This document shows, piece by piece, positions 3,062 to 7,852 of a DNA stretch of 8,325 nucleotides. The notes beneath the pieces are model-generated. The model made no database searches. It was given only the letters and a program-made list of their open reading frames with translations, and was not told where the DNA came from. The stretch is from Pyrobaculum sp. (GTDB lineage: Archaea > Thermoproteota > Thermoprotei > Thermoproteales > Thermoproteaceae). The stretch spans positions 1 to 8,325 of the forward strand of contig WYEI01000047.1 in the NCBI GenBank assembly GCA_009903905.1, given 5' to 3'. Position numbers and translations under genes: made by a program. Position 1 is the first letter of the stretch. Each line of letters begins with the position of its first letter.

Positions 3062-4420
3062 CTAGCTGTAGACGTAGAGTATGCCAAGCATTGTTGCAAC
3101 GTCTTTGTCTAGGGAGGCGACGTCTTCCGGGCCGATTTCTCCCACGTCATATTTGCCGAGTGCCGACGTTAGCATCTGTATTTCTACCTTCAGCGACTCT
3201 ATGTAGTTTTCTACGCCTTTCTCGCCCCTGGCTAAGGCCGCTATGAGGAAAGGCCGTGCCATGTAGGTCGACGAGGCGCCTAGCGCCAAGCTCTTTACCA
3301 CATGTCCCCCGTCGTAAAGCCTGCCGCCTATTAGCAACGATATCTTGTATCCCTCTGCGCGGGCGCGTCTTATGAACTTAAGCGCGGCCAACGTGGGGTA
3401 GCCGAGGTCCTTCATGGCGGCTGTCGGAGCCATGCCGGTCCCACCTTCCTTGCCGTCTATCACAACGGCGTCGGCGCCCTCCTCTGCAGCGATTCTAATC
3501 ACGTCAAGGGCATCTCTAAATGGGCCGAGCTTAATCCATATCTTCGCCCTTGGATAGGCCGTCTTCATGAACCTAATGGCGCCCCTCAGTATCTCAGCCG
3601 TAAAAGTGCCCGGCACCGAGTACCTCGTTACCTCTTTCTTCCCGAGCTCCTCCTCGTCGAACTTATACTTAGCTCTAAGTCTCTCTACCTGTTTTTTAGG
3701 TATCTTCACCACGCCGCCTAGACCCGGCTTCGCGCCTTGGCCTATCTTTATCTCGAAGCCGATTCTGCCCTCCTCAAGATGCGGCTCCACGTCTTTGTCG
3801 CTGTAAACCCTATTCCACAGCTCATCGTAGGCGTCCTCCACGCTTTGTTGTATCAACACTCCACCTTTTTTATCTATATTTGTTAAATACATCAACAGCC
3901 TCTCCTTAAACGTCGGGTGCCCCCTTGTAAGTCTTTCCGAGTACCCCCTCACCGTCGACACGTTCTCTCCAACACCGTAGACCAAACCCGCGCGGGCGGC
4001 GCCCCGCGCTACCGCCAGCGCGGTCTTGCTGGCTATATGTGTCGAACCCATGGAGCCCACCACCACGGGCAACGATGAGGAAAAGCCGCCGACCTCGACG
4101 TCAGTTTTGACGTCCATGAAGCTGGGCTCCCTAAACAACTCCGCGGCCTTTTTTAGCCGCCCGGGCGTAAAAGCAGGAGGCACCAAGACGACGGCGTCTA
4201 GCGTCTTAAACCGGGGACACCCCCTTTCGTAGATCCCAGCGCCTAGGACTGCGGCGCCGTAAGACGCCAGGAGGCCAAATGGGTAAACGGCGTCTTTGCC
4301 CTTCAGCGCCCTAAACACGATCGCGTCAACTGGGTAGTTCTCTAAGAAATCGCGGTAGCCCCGCAGGGTAAGGGAAAGCCCCTTTATGAGGACCGCCAAC
4401 CTAGCGAGCGGAACTACCAT
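3062..4420 (-). CDS. Glutamate synthase FMN-domain protein (split GltB central domain)
   Basis: Stand-alone version of the FMN-binding synthase domain of glutamate synthase, which combines 2-oxoglutarate, ammonia from glutamine and reducing equivalents to give glutamate. Its 452 residues show FEIKIGQGAKPGLGG (222-236), IDGKEGGTGMAPTAAMKDLG (321-340) and IGGRLYDGGHVVKSLALGA (364-382), the hallmark FMN/substrate segments of the GltB synthase domain. The usual amidotransferase and GXGXG domains are absent from the chain. The only cysteine is C68, so the three cysteines that hold the [3Fe-4S] cluster after the last motif are missing, and the electron path must differ. The ATG at 4420 overlaps the TAG of the upstream amidotransferase gene (ATGGTAG, 7 nt shared), indicating translational coupling and partnership. 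A longer frame up to 4486 is less likely because it buries deeply in the upstream gene. Alternatives: MgsC-like N-methylglutamate synthase subunit or another FMN transferase of this fold. Confidence 0.82.
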   Translation of the reverse strand: MVVPLARLAVLIKGLSLTLRGYRDFLENYPVDAIVFRALKGKDAVYPFGLLASYGAAVLGAGIYERGCPRFKTLDAVVLVPPAFTPGRLKKAAELFREPSFMDVKTDVEVGGFSSSLPVVVGSMGSTHIASKTALAVARGAARAGLVYGVGENVSTVRGYSERLTRGHPTFKERLLMYLTNIDKKGGVLIQQSVEDAYDELWNRVYSDKDVEPHLEEGRIGFEIKIGQGAKPGLGGVVKIPKKQVERLRAKYKFDEEELGKKEVTRYSVPGTFTAEILRGAIRFMKTAYPRAKIWIKLGPFRDALDVIRIAAEEGADAVVIDGKEGGTGMAPTAAMKDLGYPTLAALKFIRRARAEGYKISLLIGGRLYDGGHVVKSLALGASSTYMARPFLIAALARGEKGVENYIESLKVEIQMLTSALGKYDVGEIGPEDVASLDKDVATMLGILYVYS

Positions 4421-5106
4421 AGACGCTCTATCTTCACGCCGCCCTCGTCTAAAATCACAAGAGAATCGTTGGGGATGGGGCTCCACGGGCCTTCGTCGAG
4501 AGGTTCCGACGCTATGAGCATGTCGCCCTGCCTCTTCACCGGGATGAAGTGGGGGTCCTCAGAGGCGCAATGGGTTATGAAGTAGGCAGAGGCGGTCTCT
4601 AGGTTCACAATCGCCATGTTCAGCAGGGGCTCCTCCGGGTCTAGGTGCTTAGCCGCCAGGCGCGCAAGCAGGCGGAGGTGTTTCACCTCGCCCCCTAAAT
4701 CCACGAAGGCCTTGAGGAAGAGCTCGGTGTCTGTGGAGCCTCCGGTGCGTGTGTCTACGCCGAGTTGCTTCAGCTCCCTGCCGAACGCCTCCTTGTCTAT
4801 GGTACCGTTATGCGCAATTGCGTATCTGCCGTAGATGATCGGGTGCGTATTTGCAAGAGAAACGGCGCCGACAGACGCCAGACGTGAATGGAAGAGATAA
4901 AGCAAGTAGCCGTCTGGCGGCTCGACAAAGCTCTCCCATATGGGGCTGGTGGACTTGTAGACACCATAACTGCCTTTTCTGGCATACAAAACGCCCCATC
5001 CAGAGCCGTGCGACCAGCCCTTGGTCCTGTCACGTCGAGAGATCTCCACAAACGACAACATGTGGCTCCGGCTCGGCTTACCCCATGAGATAAGAAGACG
5101 GCACAC
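4414..5106 (-). CDS. Class II glutamine amidotransferase, GATase_4/YafJ type (glutamate synthase partner)
   Basis: N-terminal-nucleophile glutaminase that should release ammonia from glutamine and pass it to the FMN-domain partner encoded just downstream. The start is set by chemistry: class II amidotransferases need cysteine right after the initiator, and a GTG at 5106-5104 is followed directly by TGC, giving MCRLLISWGKP. The longer frame from 5163 would put 20 residues before the nucleophile. In the 230-residue protein: C2 nucleophile; SGWGVLY (35-41); HSRLAS (73-78, substrate arginine R75); NTHP (86-89); AHNGTID (98-104, oxyanion-hole N100/G101); GGSTDTE (122-128, D126). This is the pattern of the GATase_4/YafJ group rather than the CGVGF start of canonical GltB. 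The gene overlaps the FMN-domain gene by 7 nt. Coupling suggests a two-protein complex; an unrelated hydrolase role is possible. Confidence 0.85.
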   Translation of the reverse strand: MCRLLISWGKPSRSHMLSFVEISRRDRTKGWSHGSGWGVLYARKGSYGVYKSTSPIWESFVEPPDGYLLYLFHSRLASVGAVSLANTHPIIYGRYAIAHNGTIDKEAFGRELKQLGVDTRTGGSTDTELFLKAFVDLGGEVKHLRLLARLAAKHLDPEEPLLNMAIVNLETASAYFITHCASEDPHFIPVKRQGDMLIASEPLDEGPWSPIPNDSLVILDEGGVKIERLW

Positions 5107-5126
5107 AGCCCGTCCGTCATCCACCG

Positions 5127-5185
5127 TTATTTCAATTTCCCTTAGCTTGAGTACAACGGCCACCGGCCGTTAGCTGAAAATAATT
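5127..5185 (-). promoter_or_regulatory. Candidate promoter boxes of the amidotransferase-FMN operon
   Basis: Two AT-rich elements precede the GTG at 5106. ATTGAAATAA (5136-5127) is centred about 25 nt upstream and would give a leaderless message. AATTATTTT (5185-5177) would start transcription near 5155 and leave a leader of about 50 nt. Neither is a strong TATA box. No convincing Shine-Dalgarno sequence lies at the right distance from the GTG. Confidence 0.3.
5155..5171. repeat. 7-bp perfect inverted repeat upstream of the glutamate synthase unit
   Basis: AACGGCC-ACC-GGCCGTT is a perfect inverted repeat with a 3-nt centre, about 50-65 nt upstream of the amidotransferase GTG and between the two candidate TATA elements. 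It could be an operator for a dimeric regulator or, if transcribed, a short GC-rich hairpin in the leader. Confidence 0.45.
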
Positions 5186-5433: not shown

Positions 5434-6279
5434 CTATGTTTTTAGTTGACCTCCCTTTATTGCTCTTTTTGTATAAAGCCGAGATTTAGTAAGTTGCGCC
5501 GTTGGTGGGGGTTGTCGTTTATGCGCGTTCTCTTTTACACGTCTTAGTATCGCTCTTATTTTTTGAGGCTCTACGCCTGTGACTTCTGCTATTCTGCGTT
5601 GCGGCGTGCCTATTTCCAGCGCATAGAGGACCACGTCGGCTTCCGTGTAGCTTACCCCCAGCTCGCCCTCTGCGGTTTGGCCTACCCACAGCCGCGGACT
5701 TGAAGGCTTTGTAACTACCCGGGTGGGTAGGTTTAGTCTCCTCGCCATTTCTCTTACCTGCGTTTTGTAGAGGTCTCCTATAGGCAAAAGATCGACGCCG
5801 CCGTCGCCGTATTTCGTGAAGTAGCCCAGCATCAATTCGCTTTTGTCACCTGTCCCCATCACTAAGAGGTTGTGTCTATTGGCGTAGTAATACAGGATGG
5901 ACATCCTCACCCGAGCCGTCAAGTTACCGCGGGCCACTCTGTCGTTTACATCGTATTCTGGTATGTTTTCAAAGGCCTTCAAGATGGGGTCTACCTCGAC
6001 CATGTAGTACGTAATGCCTAGCAGACGCGCCAACGCCACCGCGTCTTCTACGTCCTCTCTCGGCGTGGCTTTCGTAGGGAGTATAAAGGCCGTCACCTTC
6101 CCCCTACCCAGAGCCTCCACGGCTAGTCTAGCAGTAAGGCTAGAGTCAACGCCGCCGCTGAGCCCCACCACGACGCCTCTAGCTTTAGCCTTATCTATAT
6201 AAGCAAGGATGAAGTCCTTGATCTCCTCAACCGCCGACTCGTAGTTGATTGAATTTATCACGTCGCTTATTGTGATCAT
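5434..6279 (-). CDS. nadE: NH3-dependent NAD+ synthetase
   Basis: Last step of NAD+ synthesis: nicotinate adenine dinucleotide + ATP + ammonia to NAD+, in the cytoplasm. The 281 residues show the PP-loop SGGVDSS (41-47), NLTARVRM (119-126), GTGDKSE (142-148), KYGDGGVDLLPIGDLYKT (156-173) and KPSSPRLWVGQTAEGELG (191-208), all hallmarks of NadE. There is no N-terminal nitrilase-type glutaminase domain, so it should use free ammonia. The ATG at 6279 shares one base with the TGA of the PII gene (TGATG), a classic re-initiation junction; the upstream in-frame TTG at 6285 is less likely. It therefore sits in an operon with the ammonium channel and PII. In some bacteria PII proteins bind and regulate a glutamine-dependent NAD synthetase, so a regulatory link here is a reasonable inference, not shown by sequence. 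Confidence 0.95.
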   Translation of the reverse strand: MITISDVINSINYESAVEEIKDFILAYIDKAKARGVVVGLSGGVDSSLTARLAVEALGRGKVTAFILPTKATPREDVEDAVALARLLGITYYMVEVDPILKAFENIPEYDVNDRVARGNLTARVRMSILYYYANRHNLLVMGTGDKSELMLGYFTKYGDGGVDLLPIGDLYKTQVREMARRLNLPTRVVTKPSSPRLWVGQTAEGELGVSYTEADVVLYALEIGTPQRRIAEVTGVEPQKIRAILRRVKENAHKRQPPPTAQLTKSRLYTKRAIKGGQLKT

Positions 6280-6569
6280 CAACAAAGTTTCTCGCCTGTT
6301 CTTATTCTATATGCCTGCTCCACTGACAGCACGAATACCCTGCCGTCCCCCACGGAGCCTGTCTTCGCCGTCTTCAATATGGTGTTCACCACCTTCTCCA
6401 CCTCCTTCTCGTTTACCACAATATCCACAGCGACGCGGGGGGTCAAGGCGTCGTATACTTCGCCGCCTATCACAACGACGCCGCCCTCGCCTCCCATACC
6501 CTCCACCTCTCTATACACCGTGGCGCCCTGTATCCCCGAGTCCACCAGCGCCTTAAGGACCTCAGGCAA
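6279..6569 (-). CDS. PII nitrogen regulatory protein (main frame; N-terminus split off by frameshift)
   Basis: PII trimers sense ATP/ADP and 2-oxoglutarate and, next to amt, normally plug the ammonium channel. From the TTG at 6569 this frame gives 96 residues: VLKALVDSGIQGATV (helix 1 and strand 2), a T-loop at about 22-45, the B-loop TGSVGDGRVFV (70-80) and the C-terminal RIRTGE (88-93), which bind the nucleotide phosphates. It lacks the first beta strand of the fold (usual AIIKP region), which is encoded just upstream in another frame (6562-6615). A GGAGG (6580-6576) six nt before the TTG gives a good ribosome-binding site, and CTTATAAG (6600-6593) is a possible internal TATA box. The T-loop is about two residues shorter than in E. 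coli GlnB, with E for Q39, R for K58 and no tyrosine at the Y51 position by my alignment, so uridylylation is unlikely. It could be a working truncated protein, a frameshift-expressed one, a broken gene or a sequence error. Confidence 0.88.
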   Translation of the reverse strand: MPEVLKALVDSGIQGATVYREVEGMGGEGGVVVIGGEVYDALTPRVAVDIVVNEKEVEKVVNTILKTAKTGSVGDGRVFVLSVEQAYRIRTGEKLC

Positions 6570-6575
6570 CCTCTC

Positions 6576-6580
6576 CCTCC
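6576..6580 (-). promoter_or_regulatory. Shine-Dalgarno GGAGG before the PII TTG
   Basis: GGAGG on the minus strand lies six nt upstream of the TTG at 6569. It may allow initiation of the shorter PII frame, or, as in bacterial prfB, an internal SD-like sequence could promote +1 slippage of ribosomes coming from the ATG at 6615. Confidence 0.45.
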
Positions 6581-6592
6581 TTAATTATCGCC

Positions 6593-6600
6593 CTTATAAG
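6593..6600 (-). promoter_or_regulatory. Possible internal TATA box before the PII main frame
   Basis: CTTATAAG is centred about 27 nt upstream of the TTG at 6569, the spacing for a leaderless start at that codon. It lies just past the end of amt. If active, PII-nadE would also be made without amt. The box is short and could be chance. Confidence 0.3.
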
Positions 6601-6607
6601 AAGACAC

Positions 6608-7852
6608 CTAGCCATAGCCCACCTTGTGGTCAATGGCATCTAGCCCCACTATTTCCTCCTCATGCGTAGTCCTGTACTTAATCAACAACAGTCTCACAAA
6701 TACATACGTCGTAGCCGCTACGAACCCCAGCGCCAACACCATGCCGAGCCACTGCACCGCCACGAACCCGAAGCCGCCGCCGTATATCAAGCCGCGCATG
6801 CCGCTGATTTCCGGATGCGCCAGCACAGGCACCATCATGCTACCCACTATTCCGTTGAATCCATGCACAGGCAGGCTCCCCACCGGATCATCTATCACAT
6901 AGAACCTTTCCACAATTTTAATGCCGTAGTAAGTTATGACGCCTGCAACAATGCCGACAACAAAGGCAAGAGCCTGCTCTATGAAGCCGGCCAGAGGGGT
7001 TATCATAACTAGTCCGCCTAGTACGCCTGATATGGCCATGATGGGGCTCCACGCCCTCTCCGCGGCCTTGGACAGCAACAAGGCAACGAAGCCGCCCAGG
7101 CTCCCCGCCACGGCGGTGTTCGCAATGGCGTATCCCGTCTGTTCCGATACGACAAGCGTAGAGCCTCCGTTGAACCCGAACCATCCAAAGAAGAGGAGGC
7201 TGGTCCCTATTATGGCCAACGAGAGCTCTGGCCTCATAGCCTCCACCGCCTCCTTATACGCAAACTCAGCCCTTACTCTGACGCCGCCGTTTAGCTGATA
7301 CCTCCTCAGGCTGGGCCCCAGCAACATGGTTATTATGAGGCCAGCTAATCCAGCATAGGCGTGGACCACGGTCCCGCCTGCGAAGTCTCTAACCCCTAGG
7401 CCCGGCGCCAGCCCCGTTATGTCGCCAAGCGACGCAAGCCATCCGCCGCCCCACACCCACGAAGCGACCAGCGGCCACTGCACCGCGGAGAAAAACACTG
7501 CAAACAACAGCCATCCATTGAATTTAAGCCTTTCAGGCGCCCCGGCAAATATGAGGGCTAACGTGACAGCCCCGAAGACGCCGAGGAAAAACGCGTAGAT
7601 ATACATCGGTATACCTACGCCGTTGCCCGTGGGGTAGAACCCGTCTTTTGTAACGCTACCGAAGTATATGGGAAACACGGCGAACCATATGGGCAGAAAC
7701 ACGGCGACGGCGAGCAACCCCTTCATTAAGCCGTTTATTACATTGCGACGCCTTACTAGACCTGCCTCGAGGAATCCTATGGCAGGTACCATTAGGAACA
7801 CCAAGACCGCGCTTACGGCAGTCCATAGGGTTGAGGTTTGGTCCACCTGCAT
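6608..7852 (-). CDS. amt: Ammonium transporter, Amt/MEP family
   Basis: Membrane channel that takes up ammonium, a trimer with about eleven transmembrane helices per chain. The 414 residues from the ATG at 7852 show many hydrophobic spans and the family signatures: FLEAGLVRRRN (27-37), FAGAPERLKF (102-111), SWVWGGGW (131-138), DFAGGTVVH (156-164, with D156/157-region aspartate and pore histidine H164), FFGWFGFNGGS (221-231), DPVGSLPVHGFNGIVGS (322-338, second pore histidine H330). The C-terminal tail EEEIVGLDAIDHKVGYG keeps the E..GLD...H pattern important for gating and PII binding. No signal peptide is visible, as in archaeal Amt proteins. A longer frame from TTG 7912 would add 20 polar residues not seen in relatives; a TATA-like AGATATTT (7880-7873) about 25 nt before 7852 supports the shorter form. 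Its end overlaps the PII start by 8 nt. Confidence 0.95.
   Translation of the reverse strand: MQVDQTSTLWTAVSAVLVFLMVPAIGFLEAGLVRRRNVINGLMKGLLAVAVFLPIWFAVFPIYFGSVTKDGFYPTGNGVGIPMYIYAFFLGVFGAVTLALIFAGAPERLKFNGWLLFAVFFSAVQWPLVASWVWGGGWLASLGDITGLAPGLGVRDFAGGTVVHAYAGLAGLIITMLLGPSLRRYQLNGGVRVRAEFAYKEAVEAMRPELSLAIIGTSLLFFGWFGFNGGSTLVVSEQTGYAIANTAVAGSLGGFVALLLSKAAERAWSPIMAISGVLGGLVMITPLAGFIEQALAFVVGIVAGVITYYGIKIVERFYVIDDPVGSLPVHGFNGIVGSMMVPVLAHPEISGMRGLIYGGGFGFVAVQWLGMVLALGFVAATTYVFVRLLLIKYRTTHEEEIVGLDAIDHKVGYG

Follow-up and report, generated by a model that had tools for sequence, protein, structure and literature searches.

PII proteins bind the ammonium transporter Amt and, in bacteria, the dimeric glutamine-dependent NadE, as set out in passages of PMC7196632, which also describe PII-nadE gene islands in Crenarchaeota and propose the control of other NadE types. 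A frameshift-split archaeal gene is described, in the part of PMC3575233 drawn on here, for the chitinase PF1233/PF1234 of Pyrococcus furiosus. Literature searches on Pyrobaculum PII, PII/glnK frameshifts, and archaeal programmed frameshifting, covering titles and the starts of abstracts, returned no split PII gene.

Here, we analysed an 8,325-nucleotide stretch of a Pyrobaculum contig (the window), which is a nitrogen-assimilation cluster. Profile matches identified glnA (65-1366), an asparagine synthetase A-like gene (1784-2890; NF005052, cut-off clearly exceeded), the FMN domain of glutamate synthase (3062-4486), and a class II amidotransferase (GATase; 4414-5163). The glutamate synthase-like FMN and amidotransferase domains (3062-5163) are thus separate neighbours, beside the asparagine synthetase A-like gene and glnA. 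The minus strand carries an intact amt (6608-7852; PF00909, E 5e-76), glnK, and a nadE paralogue encoding an NAD synthase with an open frame (5434-6279; PF02540, with NF010587 above its cut-off), joined by successive start/stop overlaps. The end of amt, with its stop TAG at 6610-6608, overlaps the glnK start (ATG 6615-6613), and the nadE ATG (6279-6277) overlaps the glnK stop. The gene thus lies directly behind amt, as does that for the PII of an Amt-GlnK pair, and amt and PII matches are adjacent in the genomes of 10 relatives. The nearest relative found, locus L001 from a Pyrobaculum sp. MAG, is collinear with the window over most of its length. The spacer of about 400 bases (1384-1780) that separates glnA from the asparagine synthetase-like gene holds short ORFs only, together with five of the 15 indels relative to L001.

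The split frame of glnK and its intact relatives

The window's glnK is read in two frames. An N-terminal piece (6615-6562, minus strand) runs from the ATG to a premature TGA at 6564-6562 and reads MARCLLIRAIIKEGEVA, while the remainder (6569-6279, minus strand) is open from a TTG at 6569 to the TGA at 6281-6279, reads LPEVLKALVDSGIQG..., and is without the first beta strand. The nearest upstream in-frame stop, a TAA at 6587-6585 on the same strand, closes the remainder's frame on its 5' side, and a Shine-Dalgarno-like GGAGG (6580-6576, minus strand), a possible restart site, stands six bases before the TTG. The original prediction, made from the sequence alone, had placed both frames, the TAA, and the premature stop correctly, and its assignment to PII was borne out by a PF00543 match to the downstream part (E 5.9e-19; 68.7 bits against a cut-off of 25). 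That match covers only profile positions 14-102, so that no complete domain exists in one frame, and since the match of the intact relative P0001 begins at position 3, the first strand is absent from the downstream frame. The out-of-frame piece MARCLLIRAII agrees in 10 of 11 residues with MSRCLLIRAII of clusters P0001-P0005 and P0009, which argues that the N-terminal PII piece is not there by chance; L001 also matches the MARCLLIRAIIKEGEVA piece. The T-loop of this PII group (window 6430-6480; compared through P0001) is two residues shorter than that of chain 2eg1_A, leaving a Tyr-Arg of the latter unmatched; this Arg has a role in plugging Amt, and the shorter loop may no longer plug the transporter.

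For comparison, glnK was aligned across 12 loci from 10 genomes, namely L001 and nine further genomes reached via L001. One genome contributed L057, which a contig end truncates, together with L048, to which it is nearly identical; G009 contributed both of its copies (L051 and L056). All 12 aligned loci keep the frame open across the junction and have one base fewer than the window, which upholds the one-base frame difference originally proposed. No stop was found inside the PF00543 match in any of the 21 places listed, including genomes G030, G031, G033, G037, and G043, which match the family and lie outside the glnK alignment. At the protein level, MSRCLLIRAIIRRE followed by R or K and then L occurs in one frame in the intact clusters P0001 (68 member sequences), P0002, and P0003. 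Intact orthologues thus exist in relatives and the lesion is private to the window sequence, as in a frameshift pseudogene. Plasmid records yielded 17 matches, all below 60% identity, and viral contigs yielded no match.

Multiple alignment and a scan of gap placements located the surplus base, relative to all 12 aligned loci, in a pair of Ts at 6583-6584 on the minus strand. A gap at T6583 or T6584 gave the best fit to L001, with 7 mismatches over an 81-base stretch. The next-best placements, at 6581-6582 and 6585-6586, gave 8 mismatches each; any position within 6570-6580 gave 9 to 14, and 28 remained without a gap. These counts place the one-base difference at or beside the T pair and not in the purine run 6570-6580, where the original prediction had put it.

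Age of the lesion and damage elsewhere in the genus

Against L001 the dN/dS of the window's PII was 0.25 (8.5 nonsynonymous and 10.5 synonymous changes over 95 codons), compared with 0.075-0.197 for glnA, the asparagine synthetase, the FMN-domain gene, and the GATase gene and about 0.16 for amt (413 codons, no gaps). The last 23 of the 452 FMN-domain codons fell outside this comparison, as L001 consists of N there. PII lies above all five neighbours compared, an excess that is not significant (Fisher p of 0.12 against four of them, counts rounded, amt excluded), and a single downstream PII residue of the window, the N in VNEKEV, is absent from P0001-P0005 and P0009. The five neighbours together showed no gap in 1,872 codons compared. 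Aligned blocks of the window and L001 differ by 15 indels, 14 of them intergenic and one (6584) within a gene, so small indels do arise naturally between the two sequences. The nadE figures were not used as a yardstick because the L001 copy is decayed.

Old decay of glnK was ruled out, as the sequence is conserved on both flanks of the junction; this leaves a single recent insertion or an error, and agrees with the earlier argument from the preserved strand. Of the paired outcomes that the original prediction had named as refuting it, the uninterrupted frame was indeed found in the relatives (12 of 12 loci), and neutral decay downstream was not (dN/dS 0.25). Its absence fits what is expected if the mutation is very recent or the base is an error. 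Judged from these comparisons, the glnK lesion is either very young or not real.

Damage to the same operon was seen elsewhere. Six PII clusters are close to the window (84-95% identity), and three of these look damaged, while P0001-P0003, like L001, are intact. P0005 carries an out-of-frame tail that, when the protein tail is set against the frames of the window and L001, matches the shifted reading of the window's glnK. On protein-level evidence only, P0009 is cut short at 66 aa, and four residues are missing from the TGSVGDG stretch of P0004, an in-frame deletion in the nucleotide loop. The glnA control showed damage in none of five close clusters (P0018-P0022; at least 94% identity, 431 aa each). 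The GlnA search scored the 8000 candidates with most shared words; the 120 best of them were listed and reached down to 318 bits, which means that a close GlnA of 55% length ought to have been among them. Pieces shorter than 55% lie beyond the length range of the search for PII and GlnA alike. Among the matches listed, one shorter GlnA (P0073, 279 aa) has 77% identity and falls outside the close group. With even per-codon chance, the probability that all three lesions fall in glnK is 0.013 by clusters and 0.002 by members, a post hoc estimate from small counts; with the in-frame deletion of P0004 excluded it becomes ~0.06 and ~0.016, respectively, again post hoc. From these protein sequences, glnK looks fragile in the close Pyrobaculum group. 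Residue 277 of the window's GlnA (65-1366, counted from the ATG) is Ser and is Pro in 119 of the 121 other aligned sequences, which could be an unusual substitution at an almost invariant position or a further sequence error.

The wider operon is patchily kept. Seven of the 11 genus genomes (completeness not given) gave a match to neither PII nor Amt. G009 carries two damaged amt-glnK copies, with amt in more than one frame in both and with glnK shifted near its end in one and internally deleted in the other. In L001 the operon's nadE (1970-2240) is decayed: compared with the window it has lost ~330 and ~430 bases, the second gap extending past the gene end, and it contains a stop. Another nadE is present elsewhere in 11 of 11 genus genomes, and for L001 it lies at G001:C51. 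The amt-glnK-nadE operon looks like an accessory, eroding element in Pyrobaculum.

Inactivation, error, and recoding as explanations

On balance, we favour a recent inactivation of a dispensable glnK by an ordinary one-base frameshift, a reading that is somewhat better than even on the sequence comparisons above. In this reading a Pyrobaculum-like lineage would very recently have acquired a surplus base in its glnK, with T6583/6584 as the best position, and normal translation would then end after 17 codons and yield no full PII. The insertion most likely occurred in the cell, in a gene dispensable for the lineage, and we infer that the extra base is present in the real genome; that glnK looks damaged or is not found in several relatives was counted toward a real lesion in a dispensable gene. 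Its loss would plausibly leave Amt, and perhaps the adjacent NadE, without PII control. Sequencing or assembly error, in which case the organism itself would carry a whole glnK and the surplus base would be artificial, is a less probable and still substantial alternative. In its favour are a lone one-base difference with both sides conserved, the intact frames in P0001-P0003 and L001, and a glnK remainder that lacks any significant sign of decay. Position 6584 is, moreover, the sole gene-internal indel of the 15, and a near-invariant Pro is altered in the neighbouring GlnA. Yet the T run involved spans two bases and is no long homopolymer, the five neighbouring genes are otherwise free of gaps over the codons compared, and the damage to the same gene within the group, with none in the glnA control, suggests that glnK really breaks in these organisms. 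A bolder version of real loss would have glnK break repeatedly and independently with amt intact (as holds for the window and L001 only), convergent loss being favoured in ammonia-poor springs because it would free ammonium uptake from the PII brake. We regard this as unlikely. Were it true, selection would be seen removing a widespread nitrogen sensor convergently, with the process still under way. A more modest lead is that glnK may be an often-failing part in one Pyrobaculum group.

Two further readings would have the split gene still make a PII protein. The first strand belongs to the core of the PII fold. Reinitiation at TTG 6569 would give a 96-residue PII that lacks it, stays translationally coupled to nadE, and might keep some function. 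The six-base spacing from GGAGG to the TTG is good for a Shine-Dalgarno-like element, the frame is open up to the nadE overlap, and the downstream codons are still conserved. The loss of a core strand weighs against such a product, recency alone can explain the downstream conservation, and the Shine-Dalgarno-like run and TTG already lie inside the intact L001 gene and are thus no adaptation to the shift. We consider restart quite improbable.

The original prediction had also raised programmed +1 frameshifting at or before the TGA 6564-6562, aided by GGAGG and giving full-length PII. The frame arrangement and spacing are compatible with it, GGAGG does stand upstream of the stop, and a passage of the review PMC8211752 states that most interrupted genes in sequenced genomes are functional and regulated. 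However, the shift arrangement, which a programmed site should preserve between species, was found in 0 of the 12 aligned relatives' loci, the surrounding RNA shows no stronger folding than shuffled sequences (z of +0.71 and +0.95), and the GCC codon before the stop would be expected to re-pair poorly at CCT. In L001 the GGAGG is spelled by Arg-Arg-Glu codons within an intact frame, with no shift. The part of PMC8037382 consulted gives, as unequivocal archaeal recoding, only the readthrough of stops for selenocysteine or pyrrolysine and a -1 frameshift in a fucosidase. A programmed frameshift in PII would be new as far as the literature was searched; the comparison with relatives removes this reading almost completely, and we hold it to be exceedingly improbable. 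Frameshift bypass has been described in homonucleotide repeats of 3-8 bases (PMC3812077). The T pair 6583-6584 falls below this range, though a GGG (6577-6575) comes after it, so low-level bypass may take place at the site.

Comparison with known systems

The +1 shift site of prfB (RF2) is conserved across species. The window's glnK has a UGA and an upstream Shine-Dalgarno-like run in roughly the same order (GGAGG 6580-6576, TGA 6564-6562), a possible likeness of layout. It differs in that none of the 12 loci aligned to it has the shift, and the GGAGG recurs in L001 without one. With the PII/GlnK proteins of amt-glnK(-nadE) operons, the window's copy shares its family (PF00543), its place behind amt, and the nadE overlap. 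It departs from them in having no continuous frame and, in its downstream part, no first beta strand. The NadE treated in PMC7196632 has a fused glutaminase domain, whereas the profile search found no such domain in the window's NadE. The lesion itself resembles that of P. furiosus PF1233/PF1234, where a one-base insertion most likely splits the gene in one lineage and a relative is whole, although that gene is a different one and the strain there is named and studied.
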